DNA from: Dechloromonas sp. A34
GTDB taxonomy: Bacteria > Pseudomonadota > Gammaproteobacteria > Burkholderiales > Rhodocyclaceae
Assembly (NCBI RefSeq): GCF_026261605.1
Contig: NZ_CP102486.1
Location: 4,650,001-4,714,000, forward strand
DNA length: 64,000 nucleotides
Reading direction: 5' to 3'
A program made the translations under genes and the position numbers. Under the pieces are notes generated by a model. That model saw nothing but the letters and a program-made list of their open reading frames with translations, was not told the DNA's origin and did not search any database. This document shows, piece by piece, positions 2,863-16,738 of the stretch (the stretch's first letter is position 1; every line of letters begins with the position of its first letter).

Positions 2863-3741
2863 ATGAACTCCAGCATCACAACGCCCCCCAGCCCGCCCCA
2901 GGTACTGGTCTTTGCCGCCAGCGACCCCTCATCCGGGGCCGGGGTCCAGGCCGACATCCTGACCTTGGCCAGCCTGGGCTGCCACCCGTTGACGGCCGTC
3001 ACCGCCTTGACCGTGCAGGACACCGTCGGCGTCCAGAGCGTGCATCCGGTCAGCGCCGAACTGGTCGAGCAACAGGCACGCACGGTACTTGAAGACATGC
3101 CGGTGGCCGCCTTCAAGATCGGCGTGCTGGGCAGCGTCGAAAACGTGCTGGCGGTGGCCGAGATCGTTTCCGATTACCCGGAAACCCCCTTGATCTTCGA
3201 TCCGGTGCTCGCGTCCGGCCGCGGCGACGAGCTTTCCGGCGAGGAAATCATTTCGGCCATCCGCGAAATGCTTTTGCCGCAGACCACGCTACTTACCCCC
3301 AACGCCCCCGAAGCCCGCCGCCTGGCCGAAAGCGACGACGACGAGGGAGAGCCGTCGATCGATGTCTGCGCCCAGCGCCTGATCGAAATGGGCGCGCAAT
3401 ATGTATTGATCACCGGCACCCACGAAAACACGCCCGAGGTCGTCAATACGCTGTACAGCACCGACGGCGTCATCCGCCGCGACCGCTGGGAGCGCCTGCC
3501 GGGCAGCTTTCACGGCTCGGGCTGCACGCTGGCCTCGGCGATTGCCGGCTGCATCGCCGGCGGCGCCAGCGTCGAGGATGCCGTGCGCGACGCCCAGGAT
3601 TACACCTGGCAGACGCTGAAGAACGGTTTCCGTGGCGGCATGGGCCAGTTCATCCCGGATCGTTTCTTCTGGGCGCGCGCCAACGATGACGACGCCGAGC
3701 CGGCCGAGCCCGGCGACGCCGCCAAGGCTGCCGATGCATAA
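2863..3741 (+). CDS. thiD: Hydroxymethylpyrimidine/phosphomethylpyrimidine kinase ThiD
   Basis: Cytoplasmic kinase that phosphorylates HMP and then HMP-P to give HMP-PP, the pyrimidine half of thiamine. Ribokinase-fold motifs are clear: the substrate loop [12 protein letters not shown] near residue 20, [14 protein letters not shown] in the centre, [10 protein letters not shown], and the anion hole GSGCTLASA with C221. The family core ends near FIPDRFFWA; a 20-residue acidic Ala/Asp/Glu-rich tail follows that is not part of the fold. Its last 8 bases overlap thiE, so the two are translationally coupled. I looked for a TPP riboswitch in the 160 bp upstream and did not see the CTGAGA core. Confidence 0.95.
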
Positions 3742-4360
3742 GTTGCGGGGCCTCTACGCCATCACTCCGGATTGTGCCGACGGCGCCCGCCTGCTGGCCG
3801 ATGTCGAGGCGGCGCTGACCGGGGGCTGCCGCATCGTCCAGTTCCGCGACAAGACCAGCGCCATGCCCGAGCGCGTCGCCCGCGCCCGGGCCCTGCGCGC
3901 CCTGACCCGACGCTTCGCCGCCCGCTTGCTGATCAACGACGACCTCGCCCTGGCCTTCCTGATCGACGCCGACGGCGTGCATCTCGGCCAGGAAGACGGC
4001 GACCTGATTGCCGCCCGCGCCATTCTCGGCCCGGACAAAATTCTCGGGGCATCGTGCTATGCCGATTTCGCCGCCGCCCGGGCCGCCGCCGCGGCCGGCG
4101 TCGACTATGTCGCCTTCGGCGCCGTCTATCCGTCGCCGACCAAGCCCGATGCGGCATGTGCCGGGCTCGACCTGTTCCGCCAGGCCGGTGCACTGGGTGC
4201 GGCGCGCTGCGCCATCGGCGGCATCACGCTGGCCAATGCGCCGCCGCTGATCGCCGCCGGCGCCGACTTGCTCGCCGTCATCACCGACCTCTTCAACGCG
4301 CCGGACATCGCTGCCCGAGCCGCCGCCTACCAACGTCTTTTCGAGGAAGCCACGCCATGA
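3734..4360 (+). CDS. thiE: Thiamine-phosphate synthase ThiE
   Basis: Joins HMP-PP (made by ThiD just upstream) with hydroxyethylthiazole phosphate to give thiamine phosphate. 208 residues, a TIM barrel of normal size. Motifs: GLYAITPD at the N-terminus, the pyrophosphate-binding [49 protein letters not shown] and the C-terminal phosphate loop AIGGIT. The ATG at 3734 is chosen because it starts the barrel exactly at its first strand; earlier in-frame codons lie inside thiD. It overlaps thiD by 8 nt and hemL by 4 nt (ATGA), a tightly packed operon. Confidence 0.95.
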
Positions 4361-5687: not shown

Positions 5688-5719
5688 TGCGGCAGATTGT
5701 CGCGCGACGATTTGCCACA
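5688..5719. promoter_or_regulatory. Two adjoining operator-like palindromes upstream of the OprC-like receptor gene
   Basis: Two imperfect palindromes sit side by side: TGCGGCAG-A-TTGTCGCG (5688-5704) and CGCGACGA-T-TTGCCACA (5703-5719). Their centres are 15 bp apart. They resemble TGCGACAA-T-TTGCCGCA at 8763-8779, upstream of the second receptor gene; over 20 bases, 5704-5723 and 8764-8783 differ at only two positions. The 17-bp two-fold symmetry and the neighbouring Crp/Fnr gene suggest a Crp/Fnr-family site. A GACAAT sequence at 5743-5748 could be a -10 element placed for class II activation. This is inference from symmetry and repetition. Confidence 0.5.
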
Positions 5720-5784
5720 TTCCCGCCACCCGACTATCCCTCGACAATTCGCGCCTCAAAAATCAAGAGTCGAGGGGGTTTGTC

Positions 5785-8064
5785 ATGGGGTTTCGCATCC
5801 GTCCGCTGGCAGCGACGATTGCACTCGTTTGCGCCGGTAGCGCGCCGCATTCGGTCAGTGCCCAAACCCGGCCGGCGCCGGTGCTTGACGAGGTCATCGT
5901 CAAAGCCGGGCGCGAAGCACCCGTATCGACAGCCGTCGGCGACGGCCGGTTGCAACAACTCCGCCCGGCGAGCAGCGACACCGCCAGCCTGCTCCGTGAC
6001 GTTCCTGGAGTTGCGTTGCAGGGTGCCGGCGGCACCTCCAGCCTGCCGATCATTCACGGCATGGCCGATGACCGCCTGCGCATCCAGGTCGACGGGATGG
6101 ATTTCATCGCCTCCTGTCCCAACCACATGAACCCGCCGCTGTCCTATATCGACCCGACCAATGTCGGCAAGCTGAAGGTCTACGCCGGCATTACGCCGGT
6201 TAGCCTCGGCGGCGACAGCATCGGCGGCACGATCATCGCCGAGTCGAAGGCGCCGGTTTTCGCTACCGCCGGCCAGGGCATGCAGACCCGGGGCGAAGTC
6301 GGCAGTTTCTACCGCAGCAACGGCAACGCCGTCGGCGCCAACCTCTCGGCAACCGCCGCCAGCGAGAATTTCAACCTGAGCTATAGCGGCGCTTGGGCAA
6401 AGGCGGATAACTTCAAGGCCGGCGGTGACTTCAAGAGGACCACGGTCAGCGGTCGCGCCGGCCACACACTGGCCCAGGACGAGGTCGGATCGACGGCCTA
6501 TGAAACCCGCACCCATACCCTGGGCTTTGCAATCAAGGGCGGCAACCATCTGCTCGATGCCCGGATCGGCTATCAGGAAGTTCCCGAACAGCTCTACCCG
6601 AACCAGCGCATGGACATGCTCGACAACAAGCAGAAGCGCTTCAACCTGCGCTACCTTGGGCAGTTCGCCTGGGGCGCGCTGGAAATGCGCGCTTTCCACG
6701 AGAAAGTCGATCACTTCATGGATTTCGGCGACGACAAGCGTTTCTGGTACGGCACCGCCACGGGCGGCGCGACGGCGCTCAACGGCACGCCTTGTTCCCC
6801 GCCCAGCGCAACCTGCGCCGCCGGCATGCCGATGTATACGCGGAGCACGACCAGCGGACTGAATTTCAAGACCGATGTCGACCTCGATCCACAAAACCTG
6901 ATCCGTCTCGGAGGGCTGTATCTCCGCTATCGCCTGGATGACTGGTGGCCGGCCTCAGGGGCCGGCATGTGGCCCGGCACCTTCGAGAACATCAGCGATG
7001 GCCAGCGCGACCGCAGCGCACTGTTCGGCGAATGGGAATCCCGTTTCGCCCCGCAGTGGCTAGCGCTGCTCGGTGTCCGCTACGAACGCGTGCAGATGGA
7101 TGCCGGCAACGTTCGCGGATACAACACGGCACCCGCCGCGACCGGCAACCAGTTTGTCGATGCCAATGCCTTCAACGCCCGCCGCCACGAACGCAGCGAC
7201 GACAACTGGGAAGTCACGGCTCTCGGCCGCTACAGCGCCAGCCTCAATGCCGATATCGAATTCGGTTTCGCGCGTAAAGTCCGCTCGCCCAATCTCTATG
7301 AACGCTACACCTGGTCGACCTGGGCAATGGCCGCTGTCATGAACAATTTTGTCGGCGACGGTAACGGCTACATCGGCAACCTCGACCTGAAGCCGGAAAA
7401 AGCTCATACCCTTTCCGCCACCGTCGACCTGCATACAGCCGACCGCAGCTACGAACTGAAGGCAACGCCCTTCTACACGCACGTCGCCGACTACATCGAC
7501 GCCATCCGGTGCACAACCGGTGCAGCCTGCACTGCGGCCAACCGGATCACGACCAACCAGTTCGTGGTTCTCCAGTACGCCAACCAGTCGGCCCGCCTGT
7601 TCGGTCTCGACCTCTCCGGGCGCATGCCGCTGGCCAACACCAGTCTCGGCGACTTCGGGCTGCGCGGCCTGCTGAACTACACAGACGGCAAAAACCGCGA
7701 AACCGGCGACAACCTCTACAACATCATGCCACTCAACGCCAAGCTGACACTGACCCACCACTTCGGCAGCTGGGACAGTGGGCTCGAAGTTCTGGGGGTA
7801 ACCGGCAAGCGGGCGGTTTCGGATGTCCGCAACGAAATCCGGACATCCGGGTTCGGCGTGGTCAATATGCGCACCAGCTACACCTGGCCTAAGGTGCGCC
7901 TCGACCTCGGCATCGAGAACCTCTTCGACAAGTTCTACTACCAACCGACCGGCGGCGCCTATACCGGCCAGGGAACGACCATGAGCATCAACGGCGTCCC
8001 CCACGGCATCGGCGTGCCCGGAATGGGGCGCTCGATCTATGCGGGACTGAATCTGAGTTTCTGA
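5785..8064 (+). CDS. oprC: TonB-dependent outer-membrane receptor, OprC-like (probable copper importer)
   Basis: A 759-residue outer-membrane beta-barrel with a signal peptide (cleavage near SVSA-QTRP) and an N-terminal plug. A TonB-box-like DEVIVKAG lies near residue 33, and the chain ends in a terminal Phe (AGLNLSF). The plug carries SCPNHMNPPLSYI, that is C111-x3-M115, and the barrel carries DHFMDF, that is H310-x-M312. This CxxxM plus HxM pair is the copper-binding signature known from Pseudomonas OprC. Extra Cys pairs (PCSPPSATC, RCTTGAAC) look like loop disulfides. The palindromes at 5688-5719 lie upstream and a Crp/Fnr gene follows. Copper specificity is inferred from the motif; other metals remain possible. 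Confidence 0.82.
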   Translation: MGFRIRPLAATIALVCAGSAPHSVSAQTRPAPVLDEVIVKAGREAPVSTAVGDGRLQQLRPASSDTASLLRDVPGVALQGAGGTSSLPIIHGMADDRLRIQVDGMDFIASCPNHMNPPLSYIDPTNVGKLKVYAGITPVSLGGDSIGGTIIAESKAPVFATAGQGMQTRGEVGSFYRSNGNAVGANLSATAASENFNLSYSGAWAKADNFKAGGDFKRTTVSGRAGHTLAQDEVGSTAYETRTHTLGFAIKGGNHLLDARIGYQEVPEQLYPNQRMDMLDNKQKRFNLRYLGQFAWGALEMRAFHEKVDHFMDFGDDKRFWYGTATGGATALNGTPCSPPSATCAAGMPMYTRSTTSGLNFKTDVDLDPQNLIRLGGLYLRYRLDDWWPASGAGMWPGTFENISDGQRDRSALFGEWESRFAPQWLALLGVRYERVQMDAGNVRGYNTAPAATGNQFVDANAFNARRHERSDDNWEVTALGRYSASLNADIEFGFARKVRSPNLYERYTWSTWAMAAVMNNFVGDGNGYIGNLDLKPEKAHTLSATVDLHTADRSYELKATPFYTHVADYIDAIRCTTGAACTAANRITTNQFVVLQYANQSARLFGLDLSGRMPLANTSLGDFGLRGLLNYTDGKNRETGDNLYNIMPLNAKLTLTHHFGSWDSGLEVLGVTGKRAVSDVRNEIRTSGFGVVNMRTSYTWPKVRLDLGIENLFDKFYYQPTGGAYTGQGTTMSINGVPHGIGVPGMGRSIYAGLNLSF

Positions 8065-8092
8065 TTGAATCCACTGATCCCGCCGTCCGCAG

Positions 8093-8117
8093 AGCCCCGC
8101 TATCCGGCGGGGCTTTC
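8093..8117 (+). terminator. Intrinsic-type hairpin between receptor and regulator genes
   Basis: AGCCCCGC (8093-8100), a 6-nt loop, then GCGGGGCT (8107-8114) followed by TTTCC. A perfect 8-bp GC stem with a short T-run. It would terminate or attenuate transcripts from the receptor gene before the Crp/Fnr gene, whose Shine-Dalgarno (AGGAG at 8131) lies just downstream. Confidence 0.6.
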
Positions 8118-8142
8118 CGCACTTTTCGCCAGGAGTTCCATC

Positions 8143-8742
8143 ATGTGCCCACTGCCATCGAACGAGCGCAGCAGCAAGCCTGGGATACGCCTGTCACGCA
8201 CCCTCGAAGCCGGTCAAGCCATTTACCAAGCCGGCGGCGACGGTCTGGCCTGGCGCGTCCGGCACGGCGTCGTCCGCCTCGATACACCCACCATCAATGG
8301 CGAAACGACCTTCGCCAGTCTCGCCATTGGCGGCGACATCCTCGGTTGCGAGACCCTGCTCTTCGGCTGCTATACCTTCACCGCCTCAGCCCTCACCCGT
8401 TGCGAACTGAACCCGTGGCCCGAAGGCGAACCCGCCATCGCCGGCGAAGCGCTGCTCGCATCGCTGACCATCGCCCAGCGGCGGGCCGCCGACATCGTCG
8501 CCCTGCGCGGCGGCCAGGCGGTCGACCGCGTGATCGGCCTGATCCGCCTGCTCACCGACAGCGCCGGCCAGGTCGTGCTGCCGACCCGGCAGGATATCGC
8601 CGACATCACCGACCTGCGCTTTGAAACCATCTCGCGCATCATCAAGAGCCTCGAAAGGGCCCGGGTCCTGGCCCCCCTCCGAATTGCCGGCGTTCATGCG
8701 ACGCGCAGTTTTCAGGTCGACCTGGCCGCCACCGCCTATTGA
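8143..8742 (+). CDS. Crp/Fnr-family transcriptional regulator
   Basis: A 199-residue regulator with an N-terminal cyclic-nucleotide-like beta-roll and a C-terminal winged helix. The helix-turn-helix reads TRQDIADITDLRFETISR; the ETISR recognition helix is the one seen in FNR, which reads TTGAT half-sites. The beta-roll contains C69, C76 and C87, plus C2; there is no FNR-type N-terminal cysteine cluster, so oxygen sensing by an Fe-S cluster is not supported. The start is the ATG at 8143 behind AGGAG. It lies between two TonB receptor genes that both carry a palindrome upstream, so it is the obvious candidate regulator. Its ligand (metal, redox, NO, haem) is unknown. Confidence 0.88.
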   Translation: MCPLPSNERSSKPGIRLSRTLEAGQAIYQAGGDGLAWRVRHGVVRLDTPTINGETTFASLAIGGDILGCETLLFGCYTFTASALTRCELNPWPEGEPAIAGEALLASLTIAQRRAADIVALRGGQAVDRVIGLIRLLTDSAGQVVLPTRQDIADITDLRFETISRIIKSLERARVLAPLRIAGVHATRSFQVDLAATAY

Positions 8743-8762
8743 GGTGACATAACCGGCCTGGG

Positions 8763-8779
8763 TGCGACAATTTGCCGCA
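8763..8779. promoter_or_regulatory. Operator-like palindrome upstream of the second TonB receptor gene
   Basis: TGCGACAA-T-TTGCCGCA, an 8-1-8 inverted repeat with one mismatched pair, 87 bp before the start codon. It matches the region before the OprC-like gene (5704-5723 versus 8764-8783, 18 of 20 identical). A TACCAT at 8804-8809 could be the -10 of a promoter activated from this site. The protein that binds is inferred to be of the Crp/Fnr family. Confidence 0.5.
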
Positions 8780-8841
8780 TTCCGGGCACCCCAGCCCGGA
8801 ACGTACCATTCAATCCTAAATATTTGTTTCATAAGCATTTT

Positions 8842-8855
8842 TTGATACACATCAA
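8842..8855. promoter_or_regulatory. FNR/DNR-type box TTGAT-ACAC-ATCAA
   Basis: A perfect match to the FNR/ANR/DNR consensus TTGAT-N4-ATCAA, ending 10 nt before the ATG of the second TonB receptor gene. This position is too close to the start for class II activation, so binding here would more likely block transcription or translation initiation. Chance occurrence cannot be excluded from one site. Confidence 0.5.
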
Positions 8856-8865
8856 TTAGGATTCG

Positions 8866-10971
8866 ATGATGAAGAATTCCGCAATGCCCCCGTTGGCGCT
8901 GGCTCTGTTGGCTGCCGTTATGCCGGCGCGAGCCGCTGCCGCTGATCAGGCCCTCGGCGAAGTCACCGTCACCGCCACCCGCGAGGGGCAGCTGGTTGCG
9001 GAAACCCCGGCCAGCATCGGCGTCATCAAGGAAAAGACCCTGCGCGAAGTCCGCCCGAGCCACCCCTCCGAGATCATGGGCCAGGTGCCCGGCGTCTGGG
9101 TCAATGTCACCGGCGGCGAGGGGCATCAAACGGCGATTCGCCAGCCGCTGACCACCAGCCCGGTCTATCTTTATCTCGAGGACGGCATCCCGACCCGGTC
9201 GACCGGCTTCTTCAACCACAACGCCTTGTACGAGGTGAACCTGCCGATGGCCGGCGGCATCGAGATCAACAAGGGGCCGGGCAGCGCCCTCTACGGTTCC
9301 GATGCGATCGGCGGCGTGATCAACGTCCTGACCCGGAAACCGCCGACCAAGGCCGAGATCGAAGGCTCGCTGGAAGCCGGCTCCTACGGCTGGAAGCGCG
9401 CCCTGCTCACCGGCGGCAATGCCTTCGGCGACCATGCCTTTCGCGCCGACCTCAATCTCAGCCACACCGACGGCTGGCGCGACCATACCGCCTACGACCG
9501 GCAGAGCGGCACCCTGCGCTGGGACAGCGCGATCGGTAACGACGCCGTGCTGAAGACGGTCGCCACCGTCTCCAACATCGACCAGGAAACCGCCGGCAGT
9601 TCGGCCATTTCGAAGAACGATTACGACCACAACCCGCGCACCAACTACACGCCGATCTCGCTGCGCAAGGTCCAGGCCTTCCGGCTGTCGAGCGCCTACG
9701 AGCGGGAGTCCGGCAACTCGCTGTTGAGCATCACCCCCTACTACCGCTACGACAACATGGACCTGCTGGCCAACTGGACGCTGGCCTACGACCCGACCCG
9801 CTACACCACCGAGAACCAGTCCTTCGGCACCCAGATCAAGTACCGCCACGACTTTGCGCCGCTCCGCACCCGGCTGATCGTCGGCGTCGACCTCGACTAC
9901 AGTCCAGGCAGCCGCCTTGAAGACAGCATCGTCCCGACTCGAATCGGCAGCGGCTATACCGCGATCTACACCAGCTATCGGAGCGGTCCCCGGGTCTATG
10001 ACTACGACGTCAGCTACCGCGGCATCTCGCCCTACGTCCATGGCGAGATTTCCCCGCTGCCCAAACTGCGGCTGACCGGCGGCCTGCGCTACGACAGCGT
10101 GACCTACCAGTTCACCAACCATTTCGCCAACACGCCGATCCTGGCTGGCGGCCGCTACTACGGCCAGGTCGCCGACACCGATATCGACTTCAATCACCTG
10201 AGTCCGAAACTCGGCGCGACCTATGCCTTCACCGAATCGCTGAACGGCTTCGTGGCCTACAACCATGCCTTCCGCACCCCGTCCGAAGGCCAGCTCTTCC
10301 GCCCGGCAGTCGCCGGCAGCGCCGCCGCCGCCCGCATCGCCGCCGACTCGGCGCAACTATTGAAGCCGATCAAGGTCGACAGCTACGAAATCGGCGTTCG
10401 CGGCAAACTGGGGGTTGCCGTCAATTACGAAGTCTCGCTCTATCACATGACCAAGAAAGACGACATCCTGAGCTTCAAGGACCCGGTAAGCAATATCTCG
10501 ACGGCCACCAACGCCGGCAAGACGCTGCACCGCGGCGTCGAGTTCGGCCTCGGTGCCCAGTTGGCGTCGCTGTGGCGGATCGACAGCGCGCTGTCCTACG
10601 CCAAGCACACCTACGAAACCTGGAAAATCGGCAGCACCGACTACAGCGGCAAGGAAATGGAACTCGCCCCGCGCGTCATCGCCAACAGCCGCCTGACTTT
10701 CGGCCACGGCGAGCGCGGGCTGGCCCAGCTCGAATGGCTGCATTTCGGCAGCTGGTGGTCCGATCAGGCCAATAGCGCCAAATACCCGGGCCATGACGTG
10801 CTCAACCTGCGCGGCCAGTACCCGCTGGCCCGCGACATCAGCTTGTTTGCCAACCTCCATAATCTGGCCGACCGGCGCTATGCCGAAAGCACCGGCGTGA
10901 CCTCGGGCTTCGAGACCTTCGCCCCCGGCCTGCCGCGCACCCTGACCGCCGGAGTCCAGGCCAAATGGTGA
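8866..10971 (+). CDS. TonB-dependent outer-membrane receptor, substrate unknown
   Basis: A 701-residue TonB-dependent receptor: signal peptide ending near ARAAAA-DQ, TonB-box-like GEVTVTATREG at about residue 30, plug with GPGSALYGSDAIGGVINVLT, and a beta-barrel ending in AGVQAKW. It contains no cysteine and lacks the CxxxM/HxM signature of its neighbour at 5785, so it probably carries a different form of substrate, for example a metal complex. Its last 7 bases overlap the next gene, and the thioredoxin-like gene and tonB follow, so the four genes look like one operon. ATGATG at 8866 allows either of two starts behind AGGATTCG. Confidence 0.87.
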   Translation: MMKNSAMPPLALALLAAVMPARAAAADQALGEVTVTATREGQLVAETPASIGVIKEKTLREVRPSHPSEIMGQVPGVWVNVTGGEGHQTAIRQPLTTSPVYLYLEDGIPTRSTGFFNHNALYEVNLPMAGGIEINKGPGSALYGSDAIGGVINVLTRKPPTKAEIEGSLEAGSYGWKRALLTGGNAFGDHAFRADLNLSHTDGWRDHTAYDRQSGTLRWDSAIGNDAVLKTVATVSNIDQETAGSSAISKNDYDHNPRTNYTPISLRKVQAFRLSSAYERESGNSLLSITPYYRYDNMDLLANWTLAYDPTRYTTENQSFGTQIKYRHDFAPLRTRLIVGVDLDYSPGSRLEDSIVPTRIGSGYTAIYTSYRSGPRVYDYDVSYRGISPYVHGEISPLPKLRLTGGLRYDSVTYQFTNHFANTPILAGGRYYGQVADTDIDFNHLSPKLGATYAFTESLNGFVAYNHAFRTPSEGQLFRPAVAGSAAAARIAADSAQLLKPIKVDSYEIGVRGKLGVAVNYEVSLYHMTKKDDILSFKDPVSNISTATNAGKTLHRGVEFGLGAQLASLWRIDSALSYAKHTYETWKIGSTDYSGKEMELAPRVIANSRLTFGHGERGLAQLEWLHFGSWWSDQANSAKYPGHDVLNLRGQYPLARDISLFANLHNLADRRYAESTGVTSGFETFAPGLPRTLTAGVQAKW

Positions 10972-12143
10972 GGCGACTGGGCGCGCTGCTCGCCGGCAGC
11001 CTGATCGCCGCCGTCGCGCTGGCTCACGACCATGGCGCGGCCAAACCGGATTATGCGCAGATGTGGCAGGAGAAGCAGGACAAGGCGCCGCGCCTGGCCG
11101 TCGCCGCCAGCTTCGACGCCGACGGTCGCCTCTGGCTGCTGCGCGCCGTCGGCCGGCAGTTGCAGCTCAGCCGGACCGAGGCACCCGGCCAGCCGTTCAC
11201 GGCGCCGGTTACCGTCAATCGGACCCCGGAACTGATTTCTGCCGATGGCGAGGCCCGCCCGCAGCTTGCCATCGTCGGCCAGCGGGTCTATGTCAGCTGG
11301 ACGCAGGCCCTGCCCCAAGCCTTCGCCGGCCACATCCGGCTCGCCGTTTCCGCCGATGGCGGGCGCAGCTTCGCCGAGCCGCTGACCATCAATGACGATC
11401 TCGCCCCGATCACCCACCGCTTCAATGCCATGCTGGCCGACGCCCAGGGCGTCACCGTGGCCTGGATCGACAAGCGCGACGGCCAGGGCCGGGCCGACTA
11501 TCGCGGCGCCGCGATCTACAGCGCCCGCTCCAGCGACGGCGGGCGCAGCTTTGCGGCGAACCGGAAACTCGCCGATCACTCCTGCGAATGCTGCCGGCTC
11601 GGCCTGGCAGCCGACCGCGACGGCACCCCGGTCGTCTTCTGGCGCCACGTTTTCGCGCCCAATCAGCGCGACTTCGCGCTCGCCCGTCTCGACGAAACAC
11701 CGCGCCGCGCCTCGGAAGACGGCTGGGCGATCGACGCCTGCCCGCACCATGGCGGCGCGCTGGCTATCGATGCCGAAGGCGGCCGCCATATCGCCTGGTT
11801 CACCGGCGCCGAGCAGTCACCCGGCCTGCACTACCGGCGCATCGACGGTGAGGCGATGACGGCGCCGCTGCCCTTCGGCAATCTCGATGCCCAGGCCGGC
11901 CATCCGGCGCTCGCCGTGCACGGCGCCAGCGTCCATCTCGTCTGGCGCGAATTCGACGGCCGGGAAACCCGCATCGTAGCCCTGCGCTCGACCGACCGCG
12001 GCCAGTCCTGGTCGGCGCCGGCAGCCCTCGCCAAGACCGCGGGGGCCGCCGATGATCCCTTGCTGATCGCCGGACGGGACGCGCTCTGGCTGGTCTGGAA
12101 CACGGCCGACGACGGCATGCAGCTGCGCCAGGTCACGCCATGA
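10965..12143 (+). CDS. Exported BNR/sialidase-fold repeat protein with conserved Cys/His motifs
   Basis: A 392-residue exported protein (signal peptide to about residue 21, then HDHGAAKPD). It contains Asp-box style repeats typical of beta-propellers, for example SADGGRSFAEPL, SSDGGRSFAAN and STDRGQSWSAP. Between propeller blades lie SCECCR (C207, C209, C210) and DACPHHGG (C259, H261, H262), arranged as metal ligands might be; together with the His-rich N-terminus they suggest metal handling rather than sialidase activity. It overlaps the receptor gene upstream and the thioredoxin-like gene downstream (ATGA), so it is part of the import operon. The exact role is unknown. Confidence 0.7.
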   Translation: MVRRLGALLAGSLIAAVALAHDHGAAKPDYAQMWQEKQDKAPRLAVAASFDADGRLWLLRAVGRQLQLSRTEAPGQPFTAPVTVNRTPELISADGEARPQLAIVGQRVYVSWTQALPQAFAGHIRLAVSADGGRSFAEPLTINDDLAPITHRFNAMLADAQGVTVAWIDKRDGQGRADYRGAAIYSARSSDGGRSFAANRKLADHSCECCRLGLAADRDGTPVVFWRHVFAPNQRDFALARLDETPRRASEDGWAIDACPHHGGALAIDAEGGRHIAWFTGAEQSPGLHYRRIDGEAMTAPLPFGNLDAQAGHPALAVHGASVHLVWREFDGRETRIVALRSTDRGQSWSAPAALAKTAGAADDPLLIAGRDALWLVWNTADDGMQLRQVTP

Positions 12144-12604
12144 GGTGGCTCGTTCTTCTCCTCGCCTTGCTCGCCGGCCTCGCCGAGGCCGACGTCCGCC
12201 CGTTCGGCCCGGGCAGCCTGCAGCAGATCCAGGACGAACGATCCGGCAAAGCCTTCATCCTCACCCTGTGGTCGGCCACCTGCATCCACTGCCCGAGCGA
12301 GCTCAAGGCGCTGGGCGAACTGGTGCGCCAGCATCCGGGTCTCGACATCGTGCTGGTCGCCGCCGACACGCCGGCCGACACGCCGCAACTGGAACGGCTC
12401 GCCGCCGATTACGGTCTGGGCCGGCAGGCGCAATGGGTATTCGCCGACGCGCAGCCGGAAAAGCTGCGCTTCGCGATCGACCGCCGCTGGTTTGGCGAAC
12501 TGCCCCGCACCTACTTTTTCGACGCCCGACACCGGCGCGAAGCGAACTCCGGCGTCGTGCCGCTCGAGCGCCTAGAACGCTGGGTTCGCGAACACGTAAA
12601 ATAG
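12140..12604 (+). CDS. Thioredoxin-like (TlpA-type) exported protein
   Basis: A 154-residue protein with an N-terminal hydrophobic signal and a thioredoxin fold. The active-site pair is C48-I-H-C51 in LTLWSATCIHCPSE. The cis-Pro region is ELPRTYFFDA. Such proteins act in the periplasm as thiol reductants or in metal insertion. It starts inside the stop of the BNR-protein gene (ATGA) and ends 4 nt before tonB. Its likely job is to keep the cysteines of its neighbours, or of a copper site, reduced; that is inference from position. Confidence 0.78.
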   Translation: MRWLVLLLALLAGLAEADVRPFGPGSLQQIQDERSGKAFILTLWSATCIHCPSELKALGELVRQHPGLDIVLVAADTPADTPQLERLAADYGLGRQAQWVFADAQPEKLRFAIDRRWFGELPRTYFFDARHRREANSGVVPLERLERWVREHVK

Positions 12605-12608
12605 CAAG

Positions 12609-13291
12609 ATGATTTCCCAGCGCCTCGACTTTCAGCCCGAGCTCCCCGAATGGCGGAGAAGCGGTCGCTTTGTGCTGCTCGCCGTGCTCCTGCACGCCGT
12701 CGTGCTGTTCTCGCCGCTGCAAGTCGCCATCGGCAAGCTGGAAATTCCCGAGCCGACGACGATCATGGTTCGCCTGGTCGAAACCGTCTCGGCACCGCCG
12801 GCCAAGCCGGAGATCGTCCCGCCCAAACCGCTGCCGCCGACGCCGGCCGCTGCGCCTCGGGAGCGCGTCAAGCCGACGCCCCGCCCGCTACTCGCCATGT
12901 CCCCCGAACAAAGTGCTTCGCCGGCAGCTTTTGCGGTCCCCGAGGCGGTCGCCCCCCGGCAGCCACACCGGCGCCGACGGTCGTGGCGAGCACTGCGCCG
13001 GTCGCGGTGACGACCGCCCGCTTCGACGCCGCCTACCTGCACAATCCGGAACCGAAATATCCGCCACTATCCCGCCGCCTGGGCGAAGAGGGCAAAGTAT
13101 TGCTCAAGGTACGGGTCAGCCCGAACGGCCAGCCGACGATTGTCGAACTGGAACGCAGCAGCAGTTTCGAACGGTTGGATGAAGCGGCCCGCCAGACCGT
13201 GGCGCGCTGGCGCTTCGTTCCCGCCAAGCGCGGTGACGAGGCGGTCGAGGCCTCGGTCATCGTGCCCATCGTCTTCCGGCTGGAAAGTTAG
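12609..13291 (+). CDS. tonB: TonB energy transducer, split by an apparent one-base deletion
   Basis: Energises the outer-membrane receptors encoded just upstream. The first frame (from ATG 12609) gives a cytoplasmic N-terminus, one membrane anchor (FVLLAVLLHAVVLF, residues about 21-34) and a Pro/Lys-rich spacer (PPKPLPPTP). The C-terminal TonB domain (PEPKYPPLSRRLGEEGKVLL onwards) is in another frame and ends at 13291. The two frames join if one base is added in the run of six C at 12952-12957, giving about 227 residues. Both halves look normal, so a sequencing deletion is more likely than a dead gene; slippage on the C-run is a lesser possibility. Confidence 0.82.
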
Positions 13292-14359: not shown

Positions 14360-15499
14360 TTGAAGAAAACACTGCTCGCTACGCTGCTTTCGACCCTCGC
14401 CGTCGGCGCGCTGGCCGATATCAATGTCGGCGTCACGCTATCCGCCACCGGTCCGGCCGCCTCGCTCGGCATTCCGGAAAAGAACACCATCGATCTGCTG
14501 CCGAAGAGCATCGCCGGGCAGAAGGTCAATTACATCGTCCTTGACGATGCTTCCGACACGACCACCGCGGTCAAGAACACCCGCAAACTGATCAGCGAAT
14601 ACAAGGTCGACCTGATCATCGGCTCGACCACGACGCCCAACTCGCTGGCCATGGTCGACGTTGCCGCCGAGGGTGAAACGCCGATGATCGCGATGGCCGC
14701 CTCGGCCCGCATCGTCGAGCCGATGGACGAGAAGCGCCGGTGGGTCTTCAAGACGCCGCAGAACGATGCCCAGATGTCCACCGCCATCGTCGAGCACATG
14801 ACCAACAACAATATCAAAACCGTGGCCTACATCGGCTTTTCCGACGCCTACGGCGAGGGCTGGTGGAACGAATTCTCGAAGCTGGCCGAAGTGCGCAAGA
14901 TCAAGCTGGTCGGCAACGAGCGCTTCAACCGCACCGATACCACGGTGACCGGCCAGATCCTCAAGATCCTTTCGGCCAAGCCCGATGCTGTCCTGATTGG
15001 CGGAGCCGGCACACCGGCCGCCTTGCCCCAGAAGTCGCTGAAGGAAAAGGGTTTCAAGGGCACCATTTACCAGACCCATGGCGTCGCCAACAACGACTTC
15101 CTGCGCGTCTGCGGCAAGGATTGCGAAGGTACCGTACTGCCCACCGGCCCGGTGCTGGTCGCCGGCCAGCTGCCGGCCGACAACCCGGTCAAGAAATCTG
15201 CCGTCGAATACCAGAGCAAGTACGAGGCCGTGCATGGCAAGGGCAGCATCAATGCCTTCGGCGGCTATGCCTGGGATGCCGGCCAGCTGCTGGCGAACGC
15301 CGCCCCGGCGGCGCTCAAGAAGGCGCAGCCAGGTAGCCGCGAGTTCCGTCTGGCGCTGCGCGATGCGCTGGAAGGCACCAAGAATGTCGCCGGCGCCCAT
15401 GGCGTCTACAATATGAGCGCCACCGACCACCTTGGTCTCGACCAGCGGGCCCGGGTCATGGTCACCGTTCAGGAAGGAGCCTGGAGGCTCGCCCGCTAA
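14360..15499 (+). CDS. Periplasmic substrate-binding protein of a Liv-type ABC importer (copy 1)
   Basis: A 379-residue type I periplasmic binding protein. It begins with a TTG codon behind AGGGGAG and has a Sec signal ending at AVGALA-DINVGV. Leu/Ile/Val-binding family features are clear: ATGPAASLGIPEKN, a hinge near IIGSTTTPNSLAM, and DAYGEGWWNEF. It is a close paralogue of the protein encoded at 15599, with most positions identical. C255 and C260 in RVCGKDCEG are an added Cys pair not found in copy 2 (RVGGKDVEG). Permease and ATPase genes follow. The ligand is not certain: many of this family in betaproteobacteria bind amino acids, others aromatic acids. Confidence 0.88.
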   Translation: MKKTLLATLLSTLAVGALADINVGVTLSATGPAASLGIPEKNTIDLLPKSIAGQKVNYIVLDDASDTTTAVKNTRKLISEYKVDLIIGSTTTPNSLAMVDVAAEGETPMIAMAASARIVEPMDEKRRWVFKTPQNDAQMSTAIVEHMTNNNIKTVAYIGFSDAYGEGWWNEFSKLAEVRKIKLVGNERFNRTDTTVTGQILKILSAKPDAVLIGGAGTPAALPQKSLKEKGFKGTIYQTHGVANNDFLRVCGKDCEGTVLPTGPVLVAGQLPADNPVKKSAVEYQSKYEAVHGKGSINAFGGYAWDAGQLLANAAPAALKKAQPGSREFRLALRDALEGTKNVAGAHGVYNMSATDHLGLDQRARVMVTVQEGAWRLAR

Positions 15500-15522
15500 G
15501 TTGCTGCGACCAGTGTCGATGC

Positions 15523-15554
15523 GTGGCACCTCGGGCCTTGGGTCGGGGTGCCAC
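15523..15554 (+). terminator. Hairpin between the two substrate-binding protein genes
   Basis: GTGGCACC (15523-15530) and GGTGCCAC (15547-15554) form a perfect 8-bp stem with a 16-nt loop, followed by ATGCTAAAATTTCC. It may partly terminate or stabilise mRNA between copy 1 and copy 2, setting unequal expression. Confidence 0.45.
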
Positions 15555-15598
15555 ATGCTAAAATTTCCTTTTTACGTTTCGGATTCGGGATAAAAACC

Positions 15599-16738
15599 AT
15601 GCTCAAGAAACTGACCGTTGCCGTTCTCGCTGCTTTGTCCACCGCTGCGCTGGCCGACATCAACGTCGGCGTCTCCGTCTCGGCCACCGGCCCGGCGGCT
15701 TCGCTCGGCATCCCGGAAAAGAACACCATCGCTCTGCTGCCGACTACGATCGGCGGCCAGAAGGTCAATTACATCGTGCTCGACGATGCCACCGACCCGA
15801 CCGCGGCGACCAAGAACATCAAGAAGCTGGTCACCGAGAACAAGGTCGATGTCGTGATCGGCTCGACCACCACCCCGAACTCGCTGGCCATGATGGACGT
15901 CGCCGTCGAAAACGAGACGCCGCTGATTTCGATGGCCGGCTCGGCGATCGTCGTCGAACCGATGGACGCCAAGCGCCAGTGGGTTTTCAAGACAGCCCAG
16001 AACGACGCCCACATGGCGACCGCGCTGGTCCAGCACATGACCGACAAGAATGTCCAGACCGTCGCCTTCATCGGCTTTGCCGATGCCTACGGCGAAGGCT
16101 GGTACAAGGAATTCGCCAAGATCGCCGAAGCCCGTAAGCTGAAGATCGTCGGCAGCGAGCGCTTCCAGCGCAACGACACCTCGGTGACCGGCCAGATCCT
16201 CAAGATCATGGCCGCCAAGCCGGATGCCGTGCTGATCGGCGGCGCCGGCACCCCGGCCGCCTTGCCGCAGAAGGCGCTCAAGGAAAAAGGCTACAAGGGC
16301 CTGATCTACCAGACGCACGGCGTCGCCAACAACGATTTCCTGCGCGTCGGCGGCAAGGATGTCGAGGGCGCCTTCCTGCCGGTCGGACCGATGGTCGTCG
16401 CCGCCCAGCTGCCGGCCGACAACCCGGTCAAGAAGTCGGCACTGGAATACGTCACCAAGTACGAAGCGGCGCATGGCAAGGGCAGCATCAGCTCCTTCGG
16501 TGGTCACGCCTGGGATGCCGGCCAGTTGCTGCAGAGCGCCATTCCTGTAGCCCTCAAGAAAGCCCAGCCGGGGACCAAGGAATTCCGCAAGGCCTTGCGC
16601 GACGCCCTCGAAGGGACCAAGAACCTGGCCGGCGCCCACGGCATCTTCAACCTGACGCCAAACGATCACCAGGGTTTCGACCAGCGCGCCCGCGTCATGG
16701 TCACCATCGAAAACAACACCTGGAAACTGATCAAGTAA
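15599..16738 (+). CDS. Periplasmic substrate-binding protein of a Liv-type ABC importer (copy 2)
   Basis: A 379-residue paralogue of the upstream gene with the same architecture: signal peptide ending at TAALA-DINVGV, then SATGPAASLGIPEKN, the ligand loop GSTTTPNSLAMMDV, and DAYGEGWYKEF. The ATG at 15599 is used because it starts the signal peptide. Tandem binding proteins feeding one permease usually widen the ligand range. The stop is followed by 99 bp and then the fused permease/ATPase gene. Confidence 0.9.
   Translation: MLKKLTVAVLAALSTAALADINVGVSVSATGPAASLGIPEKNTIALLPTTIGGQKVNYIVLDDATDPTAATKNIKKLVTENKVDVVIGSTTTPNSLAMMDVAVENETPLISMAGSAIVVEPMDAKRQWVFKTAQNDAHMATALVQHMTDKNVQTVAFIGFADAYGEGWYKEFAKIAEARKLKIVGSERFQRNDTSVTGQILKIMAAKPDAVLIGGAGTPAALPQKALKEKGYKGLIYQTHGVANNDFLRVGGKDVEGAFLPVGPMVVAAQLPADNPVKKSALEYVTKYEAAHGKGSISSFGGHAWDAGQLLQSAIPVALKKAQPGTKEFRKALRDALEGTKNLAGAHGIFNLTPNDHQGFDQRARVMVTIENNTWKLIK

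Follow-up and report, generated by a model that had tools for sequence, protein, structure and literature searches.

The oprC-crp-TBDT2 locus and its shared box

We analysed a window of 64,000 nucleotides (nt; 64 kb) from Dechloromonas sp. A34 (contig NZ_CP102486.1, positions 4,650,001 to 4,714,000), in which a short palindromic box precedes two TonB-dependent receptor genes that flank a gene for a Crp/Fnr-type regulator. Coordinates are counted from the first letter of this window unless another locus is named. All three genes lie on the forward strand (+). The first, an oprC/nosA-like gene (5785-8064, 759 amino acids), and the third, here named TBDT2 (8866-10971, 701 amino acids), both match the Pfam families Plug and TonB_dep_Rec. 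Between them, the crp/fnr gene (8143-8742, 199 amino acids; hereafter crp) starts with the ATG at 8143 after AGGAG, and a longer frame opens with TTG at 8065.

The most symmetric copy of the box, TGCGACAATTTGCCGCA, occupies 8763-8779 upstream of TBDT2 and fits the pattern TGCGRCANNNTGYCGCA with 0 mismatches. Upstream of oprC the box is found in tandem, with a distal copy at 5688-5704 (TGCGGCAGATTGTCGCG, 1 mismatch) and a proximal copy at 5703-5719 (CGCGACGATTTGCCACA, 3 mismatches); none of the copies is assigned a strand. The proximal box, at -82, has the position that is kept in oprC orthologues, for which the best 17-nt windows start at -81 to -78 in 25 aligned upstream regions. We refer to these elements as RegA-type boxes, after the published consensuses compared below. 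With up to one mismatch, TGCGRCANNNTGYCGCA has 2 matches in the window against 0.14 expected, and 2 matches were reached in 2 out of 100 shuffles. On re-reading, the original prediction had the sequences and coordinates of the boxes right, as well as the 18/20 identity between 5704-5723 and 8764-8783. Its 8-1-8 symmetric core describes the copy at 8763 (7 of 8 mirrored pairs) but not those at 5688-5704 (5 of 8) and 5703-5719 (4 of 8). That the window holds no other intergenic copy is true up to one mismatch; two mismatches, with coding and intergenic positions treated alike, add 14200 and 47564.

In both promoters the box is followed directly on its 3' side by TTCC, a possible -35 element, at 5720-5723 for oprC (+; conservation 95-99 in the oprC profile) and at 8780-8783 for TBDT2 (+; columns 99, 99, 87, and 74 in 8 sequences). 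Possible -10 elements are GACAAT at 5743-5748 (+; A, A, A, and T columns 87-99) for oprC and TACCAT at 8804-8809 (+) for TBDT2, where T, A, A, and T of TAnnAT are fully conserved in 8 sequences. GACAAT and TAnnAT, both well conserved, come 19-20 base pairs (bp) after TTCC. If these elements are the promoters, the RegA-type box would lie just upstream of the -35 region, in the place of an activator. A scan for the sigma-70 promoter consensus called none of the elements proposed from conservation. The scan called instead GTGACA-16-GACAAT at 8744-8771, with the box over its -10; we set this candidate aside, as conservation is low across its first hexamer (37-62 per column). If real, it would imply repression by the binder of the box.

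Further downstream, a perfect FNR-type box, TTGATACACATCAA, lies at 8842-8855 (no strand), 10 bp before the ATG of TBDT2. It is the one match in the window against 0.04 expected, and 1 match was reached in 4 out of 100 shuffles. With the promoter elements proposed above, this box would be downstream of the transcription start, in the place of a repressor. Neither the FNR-type box nor the genome copies of the RegA-type box had been noticed in the original prediction.

Copies of the box in the genome and in relatives

A strict pattern, TGCGNCANNNTGNCGCA, occurs at 3 places in the 4,757,803-base genome (~4.76 Mb), compared to 0 for a reversed-pattern control. One is the box at 8763, and the others precede each of two clade II (Sec-type) nosZ genes ~1.1 Mb away (L004:7208-9505 and 14395-16692, corresponding to G000:C1 near 3545204 and 3552397), with 85 and 89 bp from box start to ATG. 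The box of nosZ1 sits between nosZ and a divergent row formed by a hypothetical gene, SCO1/SenC, and PCuAC. The two nosZ genes, ~7 kb apart, are 99% identical in protein; their leaders differ, and the box is the same. Loci with two nosZ copies also occur in the genomes G008, G018, G031, G046, and G053.

With the purine/pyrimidine (R/Y) version of the pattern and one mismatch, 16 places were found in the genome versus 8 for the control. Seven of the 16 precede six genes: regB, nosZ1, nosZ2, oprC, TBDT2, and TBDT3. The last of these encodes a third TonB receptor (L273, G000:C1:348500-355500) with tandem boxes 17 bp apart and a NapH-like polyferredoxin gene two genes downstream; its orthologues in G005, G007, and G027 retain the box, in tandem in G005 and G007. 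The regulon had been taken for local and self-contained, which it is not, as the same box stands elsewhere in the genome before nosZ (twice), regB, and the third TonB receptor gene.

We traced the box in 100 relatives, 60 of them from Azonexus/Dechloromonas, which is the genus meant in all counts; the search for oprC, TBDT2, and TBDT3 covered 60 genomes, of which 36 belong to the genus. All of the 30 best-scoring nosZ loci (L085-L114) have the box ~75-90 bp ahead of the start codon, with 0 mismatches in 27 of them and one in 3; beyond these, G042, G059, and G082 have it and G073 has none. Of the 26 readable regions upstream of oprC, 24 carry it with up to two mismatches at 78-110 bp from the start, the exceptions being G073 (another family) and a homologue in G014; it is also present in 30/30 readable regions of the named loci; oprC matches that were unreadable or below 45% were left out (L209, L212, L214, and L215). 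TBDT2 has the box in 8/8 upstream regions, its own included, and in 6/6 named loci, and TBDT3 within one mismatch in 4/4, again including its own. Of the 30 best-scoring regB loci of the genus, 29 have a box with at most one mismatch 63-69 bp ahead of the start; among the 13 genomes of other families that bear RegA, eight have such a box, 45-260 bp upstream of regB.

Close relatives share sequence through descent, and chance similarity or inherited functionless flanking sequence could mimic an operator. This explanation is contradicted by the upstream conservation profiles, because they peak at the box in four promoter sets with diverged surroundings. In aligned 200-bp upstream regions (33 nosZ, 25 oprC, 8 TBDT2, and 30 regB), the best 17-nt window is the box, within 1 nt for nosZ, TBDT2, and regB, while the oprC window overlaps the box by at least 13 nt and includes TTCC. 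Conservation in the best window compared to the mean is 0.93 versus 0.68 for nosZ, 0.90 versus 0.50 for oprC, 0.98 versus 0.70 for TBDT2, and 0.98 versus 0.75 for regB. Considering also that the six genes behind the box in the genome analysed here have a common theme, we give chance or bare descent practically no credence. Conservation in relatives, on which the original prediction had staked its case, was thus found; its idea of an operator shared by both receptor genes is borne out, with the box as the conservation peak upstream of both, and the metal (copper) context that it proposed is supported.

Further genes with a box before or next to them in relatives are a NosL-family gene (L294), tonB (L306), a PepSY_TM gene (L280), and a copper-receptor homologue (L282). 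A similar NosL-family case was seen by eye in L296, as was a SCO-like gene ~300 bp from a box in L305. Clusters of boxes with TonB receptor, PepSY_TM, ApbE, and redoxin genes occur in G074 and G075. The remaining boxes in relatives, located within open frames or ahead of unrelated genes, may be due to chance, and the assignment of sites as inside open frames is as uninformative there as in the own genome (see below).

Two of these clusters deserve separate description. Seven perfect boxes in ~18 kb surround TonB receptor, PepSY_TM, ApbE, and thioredoxin-like genes in L255 (G075:C1:651600-671500), which seems to be a metal-uptake island in another family. L256 (G074:C1:2057500-2068500) holds five perfect boxes, some of them before secreted proteins without a Pfam match, and a redoxin gene nearby. 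The mature N-termini of these secreted proteins may begin with His (AHTRL-like), and the proteins look like unrecognised copper proteins.

Candidate regulators of the box

The regB gene belongs to a pair, regBA (L004:2293-4082), which is located 3 kb from nosZ1 and ~1.1 Mb from the boxes in the window. It encodes a RegB-like kinase (L004:2293-3549; best NCBIfam match ActS/PrrB/RegB) and a RegA-like regulator (L004, about 3549-4082; best match ActR/PrrA/RegA). The kinase has the GGxxNP quinone motif (G99, G100, N103, and P104), the H-box residue H216, and the redox cysteine C256, and the regulator has the receiver residue D52 and MHRRTLQR, all of them in at least 95% of 43 sequences. The Fis-type helix-turn-helix (HTH) of the RegA-like protein aligns to 1umq (E 2.3e-14), which we take to be the structure of PrrA. 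A strong RegA match was found in 57 of the 60 genus genomes. A second RegA-like protein, ~50-55% identical, is encoded in G006, G010, G014, G016, G023, G039, G045, G050, and G053.

Published consensuses are YSCGGC(5)GWCRMA for PrrA, GNGRCRTTNNGNCGC for RegR, and SSGNVRDNHYSNCSS for RegA of R. capsulatus (PMC5506826). The boxes of regB, nosZ1, nosZ2, and TBDT2 show 0 mismatches to the PrrA and R. capsulatus RegA consensuses and 1 to that of RegR, and those of oprC and TBDT3 show 0-2 mismatches; the distal oprC copy at 5688-5704 has 0 to R. capsulatus RegA, 1 to PrrA, and 1 to RegR. The full PrrA consensus was matched by 0 of ~21,300 17-mers taken every 3 nt from the window, a sampling that skips the box itself. 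Furthermore, a box before regB in the genus and in the eight genomes of other families is as expected from autoregulation. Judged by sequence, the box is probably bound by RegA rather than by the Crp/Fnr protein, and the box regulon is probably genome-wide and run by the redox regulator RegBA.

An alternative in keeping with the gene order is that the local Crp/Fnr protein binds the TGCGACA-N3-TGCCGCA boxes and controls both of its neighbours. The gene sits between the two receptor genes, and of 41 named loci 31 have it directly after oprC. Among the remaining 10, 7 carry the box (up to two mismatches) within 350 bp upstream of crp, the pattern expected from an autoregulator. Counts over named loci are not independent of those over the genomes with a G handle, since a comparison with 30 crp genes of the latter showed 23 of the 41 to be the same DNA. 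The protein is a weak family member (cNMP_binding 28.2 bits, HTH_Crp_2 25.1 bits) with the recognition helix ETISR, of which E167, T168, S170, and R171 are invariant in 24 aligned sequences. In FNR, residues E209, S212, and R213 read the TTGA half-site, and CRP/FNR sites have even spacing. By this rule the helix is of the FNR type, whereas the 17-bp box has an odd centre and lacks both the TTGA half-site and the even spacing, and an FNR-type box does exist at 8842-8855.

The distribution of the gene also speaks against this alternative. A crp orthologue was matched in 48 of the 100 relatives, a number that includes 44 of the 60 genus genomes. The box is kept where no crp orthologue was detected: at nosZ in eight genomes (G017, G018, G021, G032, G034, G042, G057, and G059), at oprC in six (G004, G011, G017, G018, G025, and G032), and at TBDT2 in three (G011, G018, and G034), with the limit that several crp-less genomes are incomplete (G004 79%, G021 74%, and G025 89%). 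Outside the genus, 12 of 13 RegA-positive genomes (defined by a full-length match with E <1e-35) have no crp match at all, the other being weak (G086, E 1e-6), and yet the box recurs. We therefore rejected the local Crp/Fnr protein as the main binder, given the boxes that persist without an orthologue, the FNR-type helix, and the better FNR-type site nearby, and consider it very unlikely that it controls both neighbours through them. A role of its invariant C75 and C93 in copper sensing was judged weak; C93 falls at what we take to be the position of a cysteine in E. coli CRP.

Instead, crp looks like a member of the box regulon and not its master, and it seems to be served by the same box whether it follows oprC or stands alone. 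A stretch made up of 120 bp before crp and 75 bp of its start was searched in the 31 loci with crp after oprC; it contains neither TTGATN4ATCAA (up to one mismatch; 0/31) nor a RegA-type box (up to one mismatch; 0/31), counts that differ in threshold from the 7 of 10 above (120 bp and one mismatch against 350 bp and two). A box before a stand-alone crp would also fit autoregulation by Crp/Fnr, against which the crp-less genomes with the box speak.

The FNR-type box has a conservation of its own. FNR/DNR boxes are given as TTGATN4ATCAA (PMC1274295), and TTGATNNNNATCAA at -24 (0-1 mismatch) is present in 7 of 8 TBDT2 orthologues, the own one included, and in 6/6 named TBDT2 loci. It is kept at TBDT2 in two genomes without a detected orthologue of the local crp (G018 and G034), and G011 has a perfect FNR-type box before oprC instead. 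With 15 Crp HTH family matches in the genome (14 over the cut-off, local protein included), another FNR/DNR-type protein may use the box at 8842-8855.

Presence and absence of RegA agree with that of the box in several comparisons. G073 belongs to another family; it has nosZ (85%) and oprC (54%) but no RegA-like match (best E 2e-11), and the box is missing at nosZ (best 5 mismatches) and at oprC (best 3 mismatches, a level reached by 79 of 635 500-bp stretches of the window). In G082, RegA is present and nosZ has a box with one mismatch. Across the 40 genomes of other families, strict matches versus reversed-pattern control were 41:12 in the 13 RegA-positive and 10:20 in the 27 RegA-negative genomes (Fisher p 1.3e-4, a value that overstates independence, as the 41:12 includes clustered and possibly coding sites). 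Per genome, 9 RegA-positive ones were above the control, 1 below, and 3 tied (sign test 0.02), and of the RegA-negative ones 4 were above, 8 below, and 15 tied (sign test 0.39). G015, with no match to RegA, crp, or nosZ, had 12 one-mismatch matches versus 3 for the control.

Any regulator always inherited together with RegA would produce an identical pattern. A third, hypothetical copper-limitation regulator that is co-inherited with RegBA could thus bind the boxes, with regBA being merely one of its targets. The targets indeed lean to copper (nosZ, SCO1/PCuAC, the NosL-family gene, PepSY_TM, TonB receptors, and TonB), and in two other families the boxes cluster at TonB receptor, PepSY_TM, ApbE, and redoxin genes, which is narrower than a global redox regulon. 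However, the box fits the PrrA and RegA consensuses and precedes regB both in the genus and in the eight of 13 genomes of other families. We regard a regulator of this kind, for which no systematic search was made, as unlikely.

Several observations weigh against RegBA as the regulator of a copper-related set, in addition to the limits given above for the crp-less genomes, the Fisher value, the match at oprC of G073, and the pattern shared by any co-inherited regulator. Nine of the 16 one-mismatch places in the genome are not before genes of the set and may be chance matches. Two of the nine are supported as coding (213324, in a frame with Crp HTH, and 1824204, in a TonB receptor); an open-frame test of all sixteen was useless as a filter, since, with the high G+C content of this DNA, open frames of 231-1005 codons run over true and doubtful sites alike. 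The oprC homologue of G014 (47% identity, start uncertain), one of the 30 genus regB loci, and five of the 13 RegA-bearing genomes of other families upstream of regB (up to one mismatch) lack the box. The RegR consensus is off by at least one base at every tested site, and the consensuses of the RegA family are degenerate (PMC5506826). Both Reg proteins score below the curated NCBIfam cut-offs (234 of 350 bits for the kinase and 164 of 250 bits for the regulator), though these are their best matches; this lowers the case that they are equivalogs of those models, not that they are RegBA homologues. In Methylomonas, the effect of RegA on a TonB receptor gene is reported to be only indirect. As for the substrates, NCBIfam ranks TonB-hemin (143.3 bits) and TonB-hemlactrns (136.7 bits) above TonB-copper (TIGR01778) for oprC, the last being third with 130.5 of 472 bits and all three models remaining far below cut-off. 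The nearest solved relatives of TBDT2 are YncD (E 1.7e-24) and a pyrroloquinoline quinone (PQQ) transporter (E 8.3e-24), neither of which is a copper receptor.

Taken together, the likely explanation is that the boxes are RegBA operators that link copper uptake, copper delivery, and N2O reductase, with crp as a second-tier member. The palindrome would be the operator of a redox two-component system of the RegB/RegA (PrrBA/RegSR/RoxSR) type that is encoded 1.1 Mb away beside nosZ. We infer that RegA binds and activates just upstream of the -35 region at oprC(-crp) and TBDT2, and that it also acts upstream of both nosZ genes, the divergent SCO1/PCuAC row, regBA itself, and TBDT3. Copper capture at the outer membrane, periplasmic delivery, and the copper enzyme N2O reductase would thereby be switched together, probably when the quinone pool is reduced. 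The crp gene within the set would be a second-tier regulator, and an FNR-type protein, either the local or another Crp/Fnr-type one, may bind TTGATN4ATCAA downstream of the TBDT2 start and probably hold that gene down.

A more tentative extension, possible but doubtful in our view, is that RegBA is in effect a cuproregulator in Azonexus/Dechloromonas and several other Burkholderiales families, with the small Crp/Fnr protein, a second-tier regulator from the same operon, feeding back on TBDT2 via the FNR-type box. In this reading, the sharpest operators of RegBA would head a copper-supply set (TonB receptors, TonB, PepSY_TM, SCO1/PCuAC, and NosL) and N2O reductase. N2O reductase needs much copper, and clade II organisms that reduce N2O, Dechloromonas/Azonexus among them, act as sinks of this strong greenhouse gas. 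One sharp box common to nosZ, copper chaperone genes, and outer-membrane receptors would offer a testable answer to how this group matches copper capture to that demand at its promoters, and the locus would be controlled by a two-component system encoded far away, not by the Crp/Fnr protein next to it.

Receptors, neighbouring genes, and known systems

The best solved relative of the first receptor by sequence is OprC (6fok, E 9.5e-23; OprC entries 1e-22 to 2e-20), the next other protein being at 1.8e-7. The receptor thus appears to be of the OprC type, with copper as the putative substrate. TBDT2 has TonB-siderophor as its best NCBIfam match, below the cut-off of that model, and PQQ or another cofactor is a possible substrate.

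The genes downstream of TBDT2 are also on the forward strand (+). A BNR-repeat (beta-propeller-like) protein is encoded at 10965-12143 (Pfam BNR below cut-off); its gene overlaps the end of TBDT2, would by position belong to the same operon, and adjoins TBDT2 in 6/6 named loci with TBDT2. The protein contains a CxCC motif (SCECCRLG) and is possibly a periplasmic metal-binding propeller. It is followed by a gene for a thioredoxin-like protein (12140-12604; AhpC-TSA 21.5 bits, below cut-off) and by a tonB-like gene in two frames (12609-13291; TonB_C 76.8 bits), with the N-terminal part at 12609-13010 and the TonB_C part at 12650-13291. The frame of 12609-13010 holds the membrane and proline-rich N-terminal part, and the split may reflect a frameshift, a sequencing error, or a degraded gene. 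Between oprC and crp, a G+C-rich hairpin at 8091-8116 (+; ViennaRNA fold of 8065-8143, -26.6 kcal/mol) lacks a long T run and was not called as a terminator by a scan. It is possibly a weak terminator or attenuator that may set the oprC:crp expression ratio.

Among copper receptors, OprC (PMC8610252) and CrtA are TonB receptors like that encoded by oprC here, of which OprC is the best solved relative; PepSY_TM companions, found in some relatives, are a further likeness. Control of CrtA is post-transcriptional, by the upstream open reading frame CruR (PMC13038864), whereas oprC here has a promoter box. Searches of the open-licence PMC literature, which leaves subscription papers mostly outside, yielded no description of RegA boxes before TonB copper receptors, nor did they show the known pieces combined in a single set of RegA-type boxes that has a crp gene within it.

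Co-regulation of a copper receptor with N2O reductase has a precedent in Brucella, where the NnrR regulon is predicted to include nosA (PMC1274295). NnrR/DNR is an NO regulator of the FNR family with an FNR-like box, whereas the genes here share a RegA-type box and the FNR-type box is at TBDT2. In Accumulibacter, a relative whose nosZ is closest to that of Dechloromonas, a predicted operator with an FNR motif lies upstream of the nos operon (PMC6446978). The situation here differs: in 25 of 30 nosZ loci, the upstream 400 bp contain no match to TTGATN4ATCAA (up to one mismatch).

RegA of R. capsulatus binds copper, and its Cys156 has been linked to copper-driven RegA dimers (PMC9147068). Alignment places Asn at this position in the RegA described here, and we did not carry the dimer mechanism over, as the cysteine is absent.

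The closest likeness is to the RegB/RegA systems as a whole (PrrB/PrrA, RegS/RegR, ActS/ActR, and RoxS/RoxR), with which the proteins here share the quinone motif, the H-box, the redox cysteine, and an HTH that can be aligned to that of PrrA. In these systems, too, nos genes are among the targets: in Bradyrhizobium, binding of RegR to the nosR promoter was found (PMC4064962), and nosZ is under positive RegA control in a Burkholderia (PMC8191878). Compared to them, the set here has TonB receptors, SCO1/PCuAC, and a crp/fnr gene as additional candidate targets, and the box, while it fits the PrrA and R. capsulatus RegA consensuses, is much sharper than those quoted for alphaproteobacteria.

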